Shown one piece after another: positions 12,969 through 39,476 of a DNA stretch of 41,332 bases (within the stretch, counting starts at the first letter, position 1; every line of letters begins with the position of its first letter). Source of the stretch: Nitriliruptoraceae bacterium (GTDB lineage Bacteria > Actinomycetota > Nitriliruptoria > Nitriliruptorales > Nitriliruptoraceae). Under the pieces are notes generated by a model that worked only from the letters and a program-made list of their open reading frames with translations, was not told the origin of the DNA and searched no databases. The stretch lies in the NCBI GenBank assembly GCA_007121785.1, contig SKJX01000059.1:1-41332 (forward strand), read 5' to 3'. A program made the translations under genes and the position numbers.

Positions 12969-13562
12969 TCAGTCACGCTGACGGCGGCTGGTCGCCCGTC
13001 GCAACACCGCACCGACCCCACCGATCGTCAAGGGTTTGTCCAACAGCGTCAGGGACCGTCGCGATGCCGCGTCCGAGATGCCCAGATCCCGCCCGGCCGT
13101 GACGAGCACGAGCTGCTCCGGCGAGAAGCCGTCCAGATCCGCGACGCGGTCGGCGAGCTCCACCCCGTCCAGACCGGGCATGATCACGTCCACGAACGCG
13201 ACGTCCGGTTGCAGGCGGCCGAGCGTGATCAGCGCACGCATGCCGTCGGACTCCGCCGTGACCGTGAGCGGCACCCCGAGCGCCTCGCCGGCGTCACGGA
13301 CCAGCTCGGTGAGGAGCGCGAGCTCGGTGTCGTCGTCGTCGACGACCAGGATCCGCAGCCCGGTGGGGTTCCCGTCGAGCTCGGCGACGAGTTCCTCGAG
13401 CCGGCGGCGGTGCCGCGGCTGCGGGTTGCTGCGACCCGTCTCCCAGGCGTTGACCGTGCTGAACGAGACCCCCAGCCGGCGTGCGAGCTCCTCCTGGGTC
13501 AGCCGAGCCCGGGCACGGATCGCCGCGACCAGCTCCGGCGTCGGCGCGTCGGCTCCGGGCAT
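12969..13562 (-). CDS. HTH (XRE-type)-REC fusion response regulator
   Basis: A 197-residue regulator. An XRE-like helix-turn-helix comes first (residues 10-57; LTQEELARRLGVSFSTVNAW is the HTH core), then a receiver: LRILVVDDDD (69-78), phospho-Asp125 in FVDVIMPGLDG, Thr155 in LVTAG and Lys176 in LDKPL. All receiver residues needed for phosphorylation are present. Having DNA binding N-terminal to REC is the reverse of the common order. The start at ATG 13562 has GGAG eight bases upstream; an extension by 107 codons upstream is low-complexity and would run through the structured divergent leader, so I reject it. The kinase-like gene follows after 9 bases; the hybrid kinase downstream could also supply phosphate. 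Confidence 0.87.
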   Translation of the reverse strand: MPGADAPTPELVAAIRARARLTQEELARRLGVSFSTVNAWETGRSNPQPRHRRRLEELVAELDGNPTGLRILVVDDDDTELALLTELVRDAGEALGVPLTVTAESDGMRALITLGRLQPDVAFVDVIMPGLDGVELADRVADLDGFSPEQLVLVTAGRDLGISDAASRRSLTLLDKPLTIGGVGAVLRRATSRRQRD

Positions 13563-13734
13563 ACGGGCTGCTCCAAGGTCGGGACCGGGGCGCACCGGCG
13601 TGGCGGCTGCGTCGACCGGCGACCCCACGCTAGTCGCGGTCGCGTCCGCTGCCACGATGTCCCGTCCCCGTGGGATGGACGGTCTCCGTGGGGTGGACGG
13701 TCCGGGCTCGATCGGTGCACGCCGCCGACCGCCG

Positions 13735-13966
13735 CGGAACCGGAGCCGATGGCTCAAGCCCCGGTGGAAGGCGGCCGATACCGGGGAGGACAACCTCGTA
13801 CCGACGGGGCTCCCCGAGAACGGCACCTCGCTCGAAAGGGCGATCCGCAAAGCCCCGGGCCTACCGCCGTCCACGACGGCCACGGCAGCCGAGCTACCGA
13901 AGGGACTCCCTCCGCACCGCCTCGCTCGACGCGGAGCTCCGTCGTCCCGACGAAGGGACGGACGCG
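13735..13966 (+). promoter_or_regulatory. Structured leader with GEMM (c-di-GMP-I)-like riboswitch and ribosome-site hairpin
   Basis: The 404-base gap between the divergent regulator and the CAP gene has no gene but a structured plus-strand leader. At 13811-13905: UCGCUC-GAAA-GGGCGA stem with GNRA loop (13828-13843), then GCAAAGCC (13847-13854), a GCCGUC-CAC-GACGGC hairpin (13866-13880) and GGCAGCCGAGCUACCGA (13884-13900). These match in order the GEMM landmarks (GAAA-capped P1b, CGCAAAGCC, and GGUAGC...GUUACCGA). The usual GGGACGC before CAAAGCC is UCCGC here, and GGCAAACC is shortened, so it may be a variant aptamer. Further hairpins precede it (13750-13810; CCCCGGU/ACCGGGG). At 13940-13964 a 9-bp hairpin buries the GGGAC of the ribosome site of the CAP gene, and an identical GGGAC at 13902-13906 could compete for it. 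Confidence 0.6.
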
Positions 13967-14689
13967 ATGCCCCCGAGGCGACCCGAGGTCCCGCTCGACG
14001 GACCCGCGACGGCGGTCGCGCTGCCCGTGCGGCGGATCACCCGGTGGTTGCTCCTCGTGCTGGCGATGGTCGCCGCGCTGGTCTCGCCCCTGGTTCCCCA
14101 CGCCGCGGCCGACCCGGGCCTCGAGCAGGCGTTCGTCGACGCCATCAACGCCGAGCGCGCTGCGGCCGGGCTCGACGCACTCGCCCCAGCCGGCGATCTC
14201 ACCGCACTCGGCCGTCACCACAGCACCACGATGGCCGACGCCGACCAGCTGCACCACAACCCGTCCCTCGCCGCCGATGTCAGCGGCTGGCGCAAGGTCG
14301 GTGAGAACGTCGGTCGCGGGCCCGAGGTCGACCGGATCCACGACGCGTTCATGGCCTCCACCAGCCACCGACGCAACGTGCTCGACACGGAGTGGACCGA
14401 GGTCGGCGTCGGCGTCGTCGTCCGCGACGGCCAGATCTGGGTCACCGAGGTGTTCCGTGACCCGGCGAGCACCGCGACGACCGAGGCCGAACCGACCGCG
14501 GAGCCGACGCCGGAAGCGGACGCCGAGCCGGCCGTCGAACCGGTGGACGAGCCCACCGGGGAGCCCGCAGCCGGACCGGTCGACGAGCCGGTCGCCGTCG
14601 ACCGGTTCACCCTGACGCTGGCCAAGGAGGCGGCCGCGGACCTGGCGATCCCCCTCGACGAGGTCCTGGGCACCCTGTTCGACGGCTAG
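13967..14689 (+). CDS. Secreted CAP/SCP-domain protein
   Basis: A 240-residue exported protein. After a basic N-region comes a signal helix (WLLLVLAMVAALVSPLV, about residues 25-41), with likely cleavage after HAAA before DPG. The CAP domain follows: AFVDAINAERAAAGLDAL, HHSTTMADADQLHHNP (the first CAP His and metal-site region), VGENVGRG, HRRNVLDTEWTEVGVGV and IWVTEVF. A Glu/Pro-rich repeat linker (about 165-210) leads to a short C-terminal helix (FTLTLAKEAAADLAI) that could dock elsewhere. The biochemical role of bacterial CAP proteins is largely unknown; a cell-wall or extracellular role is inferred. Start ATG 13967 has AAGGGA upstream, within a hairpin. Its leader carries a GEMM-like riboswitch candidate, so expression may answer to c-di-GMP. 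Confidence 0.92.
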   Translation: MPPRRPEVPLDGPATAVALPVRRITRWLLLVLAMVAALVSPLVPHAAADPGLEQAFVDAINAERAAAGLDALAPAGDLTALGRHHSTTMADADQLHHNPSLAADVSGWRKVGENVGRGPEVDRIHDAFMASTSHRRNVLDTEWTEVGVGVVVRDGQIWVTEVFRDPASTATTEAEPTAEPTPEADAEPAVEPVDEPTGEPAAGPVDEPVAVDRFTLTLAKEAAADLAIPLDEVLGTLFDG

Positions 14690-36015: not shown

Positions 36016-37002
36016 TCAGGCGACGGCCACGGCCCGCGCGAGGTCGTCGACCGCTGCCGTGGGACGGATCCGACCGGCTGGCCGGCCGCCACCGAGCGGT
36101 GGTGGTGGCTCCCAGCTGCCGACCGGCACGACCTCGAGCCGCTCGAGCAGCGCGTTCGTCGCGGCAGCGACCCCACGCCCGGCCCCGTCGGTGGCCTTGA
36201 TCGCCAGCCCCCGGCCTCGCCCGTCCGGGTCCCGCCAGCCGACGCCGTAGACACCCTCCGCGCCGACCTTGGCCACGACCCCCGCGTCGAGGAGCGCCGA
36301 CTCCAGGCGCCCCTCGCCGCCGACCAACCCCGGGTGGGCCAGGCCGGCGTCGCGAACGGCCGCGAACCGGTCCTCGGTCGCCAGCCGCGCGAACGCCGTG
36401 GCCAGGTTCGACAGGGGGGCGACCACCGCGGGCGCGCCGCACCCGTCGACCCCGACGGCCGGCAGGGGGCCGATCCGGTCGTCAAGACCGGCCAGCAACC
36501 GGGACTGGAGCGGTCCGTCCGGGTCGAGCAGGTCGGGTCCGGCGCACCCGAGGGCCCGGCCAGCCAGGGCGAACAACGCGTGTTTCCCGGAGCAGTTGTG
36601 CTGCAGGCGCGTCGGTGCCGCGCCCGGGTCGGCCTGCGCGGTCGCTGGCGGGCAGGTCAGGGCCTCCGGCGGGACCTCGGCCCGGGCGAGCAACCCCGCG
36701 ACCGCGTCGAGGTGGCGCGGCTCGCCCCGGTGCGAGGCCCAGGCGACGGCCACCTGCTCCGAAGACGGCGCCGCGATCCCGGCGGCTTCGATCAGGTCGA
36801 GGCAGAGCGCGGCCTGCAACGGCTTCACGGCGGAGCGGACGAAGGTGGCCGCTGCGGCGTCGCCGAGCGCGGCGAGCACGTGGCCGTCGGCGTCGGTGAC
36901 CGCCGCGTGCGCGCGGTGCCACGACTCGACCCGCTCGGACCCGGTGCACACGTCCTGACGGGTCACCTCGGCGACCCGGACGTCGGCGGAGACCTCGCTC
37001 AC
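36016..37002 (-). CDS. L-asparaginase (thermolabile AnsA/PF06089 type)
   Basis: A 328-residue asparaginase of the PF06089 (Rhizobium etli AnsA) family, which hydrolyses asparagine to aspartate and ammonia. Landmarks are FVRSAVKPLQALCL (residues ~54-68, the Ser-x2-Lys beta-lactamase-like pair seen in this fold), WASHRGEPRHLDAV, LQHNCSGKHALFA (Cys/Lys zinc-site region), VGVDGCGAPAVVAPLSNLA and GGEGRLESALL. The GTG start overlaps the stop of a 27-codon ORF as GTGA, implying coupling. It lies in a short minus-strand operon after the REC protein. Not the type I/II bacterial asparaginase. Confidence 0.9.
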   Translation of the reverse strand: MSEVSADVRVAEVTRQDVCTGSERVESWHRAHAAVTDADGHVLAALGDAAAATFVRSAVKPLQAALCLDLIEAAGIAAPSSEQVAVAWASHRGEPRHLDAVAGLLARAEVPPEALTCPPATAQADPGAAPTRLQHNCSGKHALFALAGRALGCAGPDLLDPDGPLQSRLLAGLDDRIGPLPAVGVDGCGAPAVVAPLSNLATAFARLATEDRFAAVRDAGLAHPGLVGGEGRLESALLDAGVVAKVGAEGVYGVGWRDPDGRGRGLAIKATDGAGRGVAAATNALLERLEVVPVGSWEPPPPLGGGRPAGRIRPTAAVDDLARAVAVA

Positions 37003-37137: not shown

Positions 37138-37524
37138 TCAGCGGGTCCGGTCCGCCTCGAAGGCGGTGACCTCGCGGAGCCGTTGGATGAGCTCCAACGG
37201 GCTGAACGGCTTGGTCAGGTACGCATCGCAGCCGGCATCGAGCCCGGCCTGGCGCTCCTGCGGCCCGCCGTGGGCGGCCAGCAGGACGACGGGCAGCGGT
37301 GAGGTGGCCGGGTCGGCCTTGAGCCGGCGACAGACCTCGAACCCGTCGATCCCCGGCATCGCGACGTCGCACACCACGACCTGGGGTTGGTGCCGGGCGA
37401 CGGCGGCCAGCGCCTGCTCCCCGTCATCAGCTGTGACGACCGTGAACTCCTCGAGGTCGAGGACGGTGCTGAGGACCTCGAGCAGGACGGGGTCGTCGTC
37501 GACCAGCAGGACGTCACGGCTCAC
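37138..37524 (-). CDS. Stand-alone response regulator (REC only)
   Basis: A 128-residue single receiver domain: VLLVDDD (residues 5-11), phospho-acceptor Asp53 in VVVCDVAMPGIDG, and Lys105 in YLTKPFSPLEL. The usual Thr/Ser that follows strand 4 (normally ITA or LTA) is Ala here (VVLLAAHGG), so the phospho-switch may be altered or the protein may be phosphorylated weakly. No output domain, so it acts as a phosphate sink or by protein contact. GTG 37524 with AGGGG eight bases upstream; the upstream 32-codon extension is not family-like. It lies 37 bases after the RsiG-like gene in the same direction. A partner kinase is not in the immediate operon. Confidence 0.9.
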   Translation of the reverse strand: MSRDVLLVDDDPVLLEVLSTVLDLEEFTVVTADDGEQALAAVARHQPQVVVCDVAMPGIDGFEVCRRLKADPATSPLPVVLLAAHGGPQERQAGLDAGCDAYLTKPFSPLELIQRLREVTAFEADRTR

Positions 37525-37561: not shown

Positions 37562-38197
37562 TCACCGCAGCAGCTCCGAGACGTCCGCACGACCGTCCTT
37601 GTACCGCGCGGCGAGCTCATCGCGTAGCGCGTCGATACGTCGGAACAGCTCGCGACGCACGTAAGACAGGGACTGCTCCAGCTCGCCGAGCCGGTCGACC
37701 AGCGGCGCGAGCTCCTCCAGGTCGTGCTGCTCGAGGTCCCGCTCGTCGAGGGCGATCACGGCAGCGACCGCATCCTCGTACACGTCCGCGTTCGGTGGCA
37801 CCCGCAGCCGGGTGGACCGGGCATGCAACGGGTCGCTTCGGGTGCCGTCAGCCGAGAGGATCGTGGGCAGCGCCGCCATCAGGTCGGCCGCCCCGGTCTC
37901 ATCACGTCGGCCGAGCTCCGCTCGCAGGATGTCCAGCCGTCCCTGGAGCAGCCGACGGGCGTAGGAGACGCCCTCCTCAGCTTCCTCGCACGCCCGGCGG
38001 CGGGCTCGAAGTTCCGCCGTGGGCCACTCGCTCAGCGATGCGAGCTCATCCGATGGCAGCAGGTGCTCAGGATCGGCAACGGGGATCACCCCACCGACCT
38101 GGTCCTGCGATGCGGTCTCGTCCACACCATCCCCTGGCACTCGCTCTGGTGACGGACCGTACCCCGTGGTCGCGACGCGCGGGGAGGTTCGTGCCAC
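37562..38197 (-). CDS. RsiG-type c-di-GMP-binding anti-sigma factor homologue
   Basis: A 211-residue mostly helical protein. It contains two copies of the RsiG signature E(x3)S(x2)R(x3)Q(x3)D, by which RsiG binds a c-di-GMP dimer to hold sigma WhiG inactive in Streptomyces. Copy 1 is exact: E74, S78, R81, Q85, D89 (EGVSYARRLLQGRLD). Copy 2 lies exactly 100 residues later: E174, S178, R181, Phe185 in place of Gln, D189 (LSYVRRELFRRID). Both lie in long charged helices, as in the coiled-coil of RsiG. The region between (about 105-145) has LMAALPTILSADGT. The start is uncertain: GTG 38197 (GAGG five bases ahead), GTG 38140 or GTG 38125 all lie before the helices. Divergent from a DUF4388 gene and upstream of a REC gene. 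A WhiG/FliA sigma is not in the window. Confidence 0.82.
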   Translation of the reverse strand: MARTSPRVATTGYGPSPERVPGDGVDETASQDQVGGVIPVADPEHLLPSDELASLSEWPTAELRARRRACEEAEEGVSYARRLLQGRLDILRAELGRRDETGAADLMAALPTILSADGTRSDPLHARSTRLRVPPNADVYEDAVAAVIALDERDLEQHDLEELAPLVDRLGELEQSLSYVRRELFRRIDALRDELAARYKDGRADVSELLR

Positions 38198-38291: not shown

Positions 38292-39476
38292 ATGCGAGGC
38301 GACCTCTCCCGGACCAGCGCGGCAGACATCTGCCGCGACCTCGCGTCGCGCTCGGTGACCGGGACCCTCGTGGTGGATGGTCCGGACGGTCCCGGCACGG
38401 CCACGTTCGTCGATGGCCGGCTGGTCGCGGTGCGGTCACCACGACCGACCGGCCGCCTGCTCGACCGGCTCGTGGCCACGGACGTGCTCGACCCCGCGGA
38501 GGTGCCGGCTCCCAACGAGAGCCCGGGCGAGGCGACCATCGTCTCGCTCGTCGAGCAGGGCCTGCTGGACGAGGCGACCGTGCGCGCCGAGCGTGAGGAG
38601 CAACTGCTCGATGAGCTCCTCGAGCTGGCCAGCTGGCGCTACGGCACCTTCCGCTTCACCGACGAGGTGCCACCGACCTCGCAACGCGCCAGCCTGGACG
38701 TCTCCGATGCGTTGGAGCGGCTCGAGCACCGCCAGCGCGGATGGGAGGCGGTCCGCAAGGTCCTGCCCGACCTCGATGCGGTCCCCGAGCGAGCGGGCAC
38801 GCATCCACCGGCAGCCGGTGGCCACACGCCGGCGCTGACGCGCCTGTTGGCCGCAGTCGACGGTCACCGGTCCGTCAGCGACCTCGCAGCCGGGTTCGGC
38901 TACGGGGAGGTCCAGACGGCCCGTATGGTCCACGAGCTGGTCGAAGCACAGGAGCTGACGGTCCGGTTGCCGAGCGACGAGGTCGGCTCGGCCCTCGAGG
39001 CGGCCCTGGCACCGCCCCCGGCCGATCCAGCGCCGGCCGCCACGGAGCCATCGCCGCCCACCCCAGAGATGTCCGACACCCCGAGCGTGACCGACGCCGC
39101 GGAGGTCGCCGACCCCCATCCGAGCGACCCGCCGGCCACCGAGCCCGAGCCGACGCCGTCCACCACCGAGCCCGAGCCGACGCCGTCCACCACCGAGCCC
39201 GTGCCGGCCGCCCTCACCACCGAACCCGGAGCGACCACCCCCGCCGCCGGGACGTCGGCGACCGACGACGAGACGGACGTCTCGGAGTTCCTGCGGGAAC
39301 TCAGCCGACTCGCCGGCCAGGAAGAGGACGACGCTGACCCGCCCCCGGCCAACAGCCGGACACGTCAGCGTCAACGGTCCCAGCAGGCCCAGCCACGCGC
39401 CGGCGGGAACCGTGCCAACCAGGACCCGGCACCCGACGACCGCCCCCGGCGACGCGGGCTCTTCGGGCGGGGCTGA
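38292..39476 (+). CDS. DUF4388 domain-containing protein
   Basis: A 394-residue protein. Residues 1-60 (MRGDLSRTSAADICRDLASR, then TGTLVV and ATFVDGRLVAVRSPR) match the N-terminal half of a DUF4388/PATAN-type domain, in which a short helical segment and beta-strands precede a FxDGxLxxA motif. The domain continues to about 210 with further helices (EQLLDELLELASWRYGTFRF and LTRLLAAVDGHRSVSDLAAG, the latter winged-helix-like). The rest (about 240-394) is a disordered Pro/Thr/Glu-rich tail. No enzyme motif. DUF4388 proteins often occur near response regulators and gliding or polar-growth genes; here divergent from the RsiG homologue and REC protein. ATG 38292 has no ribosome site, but TACGCT ends seven bases before it, a possible leaderless -10. 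Confidence 0.8.
   Translation: MRGDLSRTSAADICRDLASRSVTGTLVVDGPDGPGTATFVDGRLVAVRSPRPTGRLLDRLVATDVLDPAEVPAPNESPGEATIVSLVEQGLLDEATVRAEREEQLLDELLELASWRYGTFRFTDEVPPTSQRASLDVSDALERLEHRQRGWEAVRKVLPDLDAVPERAGTHPPAAGGHTPALTRLLAAVDGHRSVSDLAAGFGYGEVQTARMVHELVEAQELTVRLPSDEVGSALEAALAPPPADPAPAATEPSPPTPEMSDTPSVTDAAEVADPHPSDPPATEPEPTPSTTEPEPTPSTTEPVPAALTTEPGATTPAAGTSATDDETDVSEFLRELSRLAGQEEDDADPPPANSRTRQRQRSQQAQPRAGGNRANQDPAPDDRPRRRGLFGRG
39138..39191 (+). repeat. Two 27-bp tandem repeats in the DUF4388 gene tail
   Basis: Consecutive 27-bp units encode TEPEPTPST twice, followed by a partial third TEP unit. It is an in-frame length-variable disordered stretch. Confidence 0.7.

Follow-up and report, generated by a model that had tools for sequence, protein, structure and literature searches.

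The window, 41,332 nucleotides of contig SKJX01000059.1 (assembly GCA_007121785.1) from a Nitriliruptoraceae bacterium of the class Nitriliruptoria, carries a gene, rsiG (37562..38125, minus strand), that is predicted to encode a twin-motif RsiG-type anti-sigma factor of 187 amino acids. The initial annotation had drawn its reading frame over 37562-38197. That frame is real, but it belongs to the minus strand, the plus-strand frame there being interrupted by stops, and it is shorter than first drawn: the gene probably begins at the GTG at 38125 and not at 38197, which would give a frame of 211 residues, 24 codons longer. We favor the GTG because in L069, the closest orthologue (84% identity), a stop interrupts the frame shortly before the matching codon, and because both the GTG and the AGGGGAT preceding it are conserved in the ortholog comparison. 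A DUF4388-domain gene (38292..39476, plus strand; Pfam DUF4388, E 5.6e-18) runs divergently from 38292 and sets the upstream limit for rsiG; by synteny, it is kept beside rsiG in most of the family. Downstream lies a gene for a single-domain response regulator (REC; 37138..37524, minus strand; Pfam Response_reg, E 1.9e-30), which is possibly on the same transcript as rsiG and adjoins it in many, not all, family members, and also an L-asparaginase II-family gene (36016..37002, minus strand; Pfam Asparaginase_II, E 1.6e-67). The asparaginase gene is found 3' of rsiG in most of the class Nitriliruptoria and in several genomes of group f23, a group that its RsiG sequences suggest is Streptomyces-like and that we have provisionally named as such. 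This gene order, common to the class and f23, supports orthology with the Streptomyces-like RsiG.

The initial annotation had read the product as an RsiG with two motifs and had proposed a profile search and a fold prediction as checks, and both bear out the identity and the architecture. Pfam RsiG (PF22802) aligns in two stretches that cover both halves of the protein (100.6 bits against a cut-off of 27, E 3.9e-29); no NCBIfam model matches it. The best sequence match in the PDB is S. venezuelae RsiG (6pfj, E 2.5e-15 over 166 residues), the Rubrobacter RsiG structures match the first helix, and only RsiG proteins are convincing among the solved structures. AlphaFold, with 81 relatives aligned, predicts a single chain whose two long helices (residues 36-73 and 136-177; pLDDT 87.6) pair as an antiparallel coiled coil. 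In a Foldseek search with this model, 6pfj came top and 6pfv next (probability 1.00, TM 0.56-0.69), with the following match far behind. The Foldseek E-value is just 1.8e-3, and the weight of the comparison lies in the rank, the probability and the independent sequence match. Both helices are present, which sets the protein apart from the single-motif homodimeric RsiG with its one motif and no alpha5. Sequence and predicted fold together indicate that the window gene is an orthologue of the twin-motif RsiG, in its ordinary two-motif form.

Motif 1, on helix alpha1 (37931..37978, minus strand; EEGVSYARRLLQGRLD), is an exact E(x3)S(x2)R(x3)Q(x3)D, first noticed at residues 74-89 of the 211-residue frame, and fits the wider pattern E(x3)S(x2)R(x3)[Q/H](x3)D. 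Motif 2, on helix alpha5 (37631..37678, minus strand; EQSLSYVRRELFRRID), lies 100 residues further on and reads E(x3)S(x2)R(x3)F(x3)D. As initially described, a Phe replaces the Gln (Phe161 in the 187-residue numbering; codon TTC at 37643..37645, minus strand), so that alpha5 keeps E, S, R and D and departs from the pattern with Gln or His. The exact motif, in its Q/H form, occurs 3 times in 1.25 million residues of other six-frame ORFs, and this rarity, with the Pfam and 6pfj E-values given above, places the twin match far beyond chance.

Solved structures of the complexes show E and S touching the ribose, R and D reading the guanine, and Q stacking on the guanine; the alpha5 Gln is strongly conserved, and His, a tolerated stacking replacement in alpha1, was the only exception to motif conservation in a survey of 135 homologues (PMC8325347). 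Our comparison set of 90 twin RsiGs, 49 from the class and 41 from elsewhere, adds variation in alpha5 to that survey. At the alpha5 stacking position, a hydrophobic residue occurs in 48 of the 49 class proteins (23 Phe, 21 Leu, 2 Met, 2 Ile) and in 6 of the 41 others, the remaining 35 having Q or H. Because 54 of the 90 twin homologues are hydrophobic there, Gln or His at this position does not define the family, and the window RsiG is better regarded as a variant than as a non-member. The alpha1 position of the class proteins is Q or H in 48/49, the exception being that of genome G026, with Leu in both motifs. This protein (L094) has both the alpha1 change of Gln to Leu and an alpha5 change of Glu to Val, and two others (L113 in G072 and L114 in G183) have Arg for Glu and Glu for Asp in the alpha1 motif. 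Genome G010 has, besides an intact RsiG gene, another copy upstream of it that is split over three frames (L100:2520-2930, minus strand) and is either a pseudogene or an assembly error.

The Phe itself marks one Nitriliruptoraceae clade, in which all 23 scored RsiGs have it at a mean identity of ~52%, and it is one of the 30 columns, out of 169, that are invariant among these proteins. TTC encodes it in 24 of 24 counted family sequences; the sister lineages have Leu as CTG or CTC, and a single base separates CTC from TTC. S154, R157 and D165 do not vary among 81 aligned proteins, and E150 hardly does. With the Phe unchanged in diverged proteins and the rest of motif 2 retained, it is under purifying selection and not in decay. 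The second motif had been called degenerate at the outset, a description that does not suit a residue this strongly conserved through the clade, at a position that is hydrophobic in nearly the whole class.

The initial annotation had also taken the protein for an evolutionary intermediate. On that view it would stand between a homodimer with one motif and a symmetric twin, with a motif 2 that was never completed or is decaying. One perfect and one altered motif would suit such a history, as would alpha1 and alpha5 helices that are 37% identical, towards the high end for twin RsiGs, but the order of events points the other way. A tree built from 209 motif halves puts all 93 from alpha5 together, apart from the alpha1 and single-motif halves (SH-aLRT 98), and those of the class join their counterparts from groups f12 and f27 in a single set (support 90). 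Since symmetric and asymmetric alpha5 halves alike belong to this single clade, the duplication is older than the substitution. At the stacking position, alpha1 and the single-motif proteins nearly always carry Q or H, which is thus the likely ancestral state. Parsimony favors a polar alpha5 ancestor (4 versus 5 changes, the polar outgroup not yet counted), on a motif-half alignment that is short (54 columns) and has many weak forks, such that polar-to-hydrophobic wins by only a step or two. The twin-protein tree places the Phe set as one clade within a Phe+Leu clade (supports 98 and 95). From these trees, duplication came first, followed by a change from Q/H to a Leu-type residue and then to Phe, which makes the Phe a derived variant of the twin form. 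The intermediate hypothesis, tested by the motif-half tree and parsimony and confronted with a Phe invariant across 23 diverged proteins, was rejected, and we consider it highly improbable.

The initial annotation had made the identification of the RsiG depend in part on a WhiG/FliA-type sigma in the genome. One sigma factor exceeds the FliA_WhiG cut-off (contig C228:2330-3004; 271.5 bits against 189.6). It is a true WhiG, taken as the cognate partner: S. venezuelae WhiG is the PDB entry closest to it (E 2.6e-87), and it has K, G and R at the positions of K57, G61 and R62, through which WhiG contacts c-di-GMP in the solved structure (PMC8325347). The three residues are conserved in 56 of 57 aligned WhiG loci of the class, a count in which some loci overlap and come from the same genome. 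Another FliA-like sigma, which scores under the cut-off, shares contig C70 with FlgK- and flagellin-like genes, and WhiG is therefore unlikely to be the sigma for flagella. RsiG and WhiG go together in presence and in loss: across 66 class genomes, 46 have both, 11 neither, 5 RsiG only and 4 WhiG only (Fisher p 4e-6, a value that treats genomes as independent and ignores kinship between them). Of the 34 genomes taken as at least 90% complete, 27 have both and 6 neither, none has WhiG alone, and one has an RsiG remnant. This remnant (L097 in G029) falls below the family cut-off and is missing the alpha1 motif, and its genome, 97% complete, is without a WhiG over the cut-off, an apparent case of the two genes decaying together.

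We place at roughly 85% the probability that the window encodes a twin-motif RsiG that, with a c-di-GMP dimer, holds WhiG inactive through unequal half-sites, the substitution having followed the duplication and become fixed. Homology, fold prediction, the presence and co-loss of the partner, conservation and the order of events were all established here, and we carry over c-di-GMP binding, WhiG inhibition and the effect of the Phe from solved relatives. By analogy with these, a single polypeptide would pair alpha1 and alpha5 as an antiparallel coiled coil and bind a c-di-GMP dimer with one motif per helix; thus armed, RsiG would keep WhiG inactive, and a drop in c-di-GMP would release it. In Streptomyces, RmdB is a known WhiG release factor (PMC13232838). 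With motif 2 retaining E, S, R and D and the presumed guanine-stacking Gln alone swapped for Phe, the half-sites would be chemically unequal, and both probably bind c-di-GMP, as the stacking residue alone is changed and Phe can stack. Leu, Met and Ile, which relatives have instead, lack an aromatic ring's ability to stack.

Loss of the Gln could nonetheless weaken c-di-GMP binding, given how strongly the published alpha5 Gln is conserved. Half-site 2 might then lack tight binding, leaving the protein to work with a single c-di-GMP, an asymmetric dimer or more WhiG contacts, and at a different threshold. The consistent asymmetry of the class, with 48/49 proteins hydrophobic at the alpha5 stacking position and 48/49 Q/H in alpha1, is compatible with this, and in Rubrobacter the dimer is already held less tightly at one end (PMC8325347). 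However, an unused site would be expected to lose the alpha5 E, S, R and D, and these are kept in nearly all proteins, with S, R and D invariant in 81, which makes a weakened half-site unlikely in our view. A twin RsiG with two occupied but unequal half-sites remains our preferred reading. We suggest more tentatively that such asymmetry is class-wide, the polar position having turned hydrophobic after duplication (Leu, then Phe), with altered c-di-GMP affinity or stoichiometry and an altered WhiG threshold. If true, this would add a form that the published survey, with its 135 homologues, does not describe.

The wider genome offers a c-di-GMP context for such a switch. It encodes 18 GGDEF domains as well as PilB/PilT-type ATPases, and the window itself has a c-di-GMP-I riboswitch (13812-13901, plus strand; 58.4 bits against a gathering threshold of 35) 24 kb from rsiG. 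The riboswitch lies upstream of a CAP-domain protein (13967-14689) with a signal-like hydrophobic segment at its start, and a divergent gene with HTH and response-regulator domains is nearby (12969-13883, minus strand). In Rubrobacter, WhiG has been proposed to target type IV pili; in the window genome we found no promoter evidence tying pili to WhiG. A genome-wide search for flagellar/WhiG promoters returned no exact TAAA-N14-17-GCCGATAA. Matches with two mismatches numbered 8, versus 2 for the reversed control, and most fell within open frames, the genes downstream forming no coherent set; because the matches are few and not convincing, we propose no WhiG regulon.

RsiG-like modules also occur elsewhere, in proteins that all exceed the Pfam RsiG cut-off and that each come from single assemblies. 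In G168, an ORF with two exact motifs in the Q/H form (L182:1243-1674, plus strand; Pfam RsiG 40.6 bits against 27) lies between fliM and fliN and is a possible c-di-GMP-responsive part of a flagellar switch operon, and an AMP-binding, acyl-CoA synthetase-like enzyme (L176:1507-3084, minus strand; 39.6 bits) ends in a C-terminal pair of exact motifs, making it a possible c-di-GMP-controlled enzyme. Two proteins of G411 (L171:820-1674, plus strand, and L175:1426-2688, minus strand; 53.7 and 50.2 bits) have Clp_N domains followed by a single RsiG motif, with Arg at the Gln/His position in L175, and are possible c-di-GMP-gated Clp adaptors. G168, a genome of the group with single-motif relatives, further encodes a 155-aa protein (L116:1707-2174, minus strand) with two alpha1-like motifs. 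Because its halves are 50% identical (the twin RsiG maximum is 41%) and both group with a single-motif relative (support 97), it is apparently a second, independent internal duplication of RsiG. A predicted model of this tandem protein, made with no alignment (pLDDT 76, pTM 0.58), has PDB matches of low TM, and we build nothing on its fold. These single-assembly cases suggest that the RsiG motif may serve as a c-di-GMP-sensing module outside WhiG control. A fold reusable in this way, fused to Clp_N or AMP-binding enzymes or set between fliM and fliN, could mean that the window RsiG binds another partner or ligand and has ceased to regulate WhiG. The close co-occurrence with a WhiG whose c-di-GMP contacts are conserved, and the gene order held in common with the Streptomyces-like orthologues of f23, speak strongly against this, and we give it very little credence relative to an RsiG that still holds WhiG.

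A literature search on RsiG and Nitriliruptor found no paper discussing RsiG in the class Nitriliruptoria. Our results correct the picture of both RsiG motifs as near-invariant, as an entire class has swapped one stacking residue while keeping the rest, and WhiG as well. They suggest that symmetry gained by duplication can later be relaxed, and the natural variants Q, H, L, M, I and F at one position offer a way to ask how far the c-di-GMP threshold depends on base stacking.

Among characterized systems, the S. venezuelae RsiG (6pfj and 6pfv, deposited as AmfC protein) is the closest counterpart: it likewise has a twin motif and two long antiparallel helices, and it aligns over the full length. 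The window protein differs from it by the alpha5 Phe in place of Gln, and its gene by the flanking response regulator and DUF4388 genes, in a host that is not a streptomycete. With the single-motif RsiG of Rubrobacter radiotolerans (PDB 7lq2-7lq4) it has in common the alpha1 motif and the flanking helix sequence, but that protein, with its one motif, functions as a homodimer, and here a single chain carries both helices.
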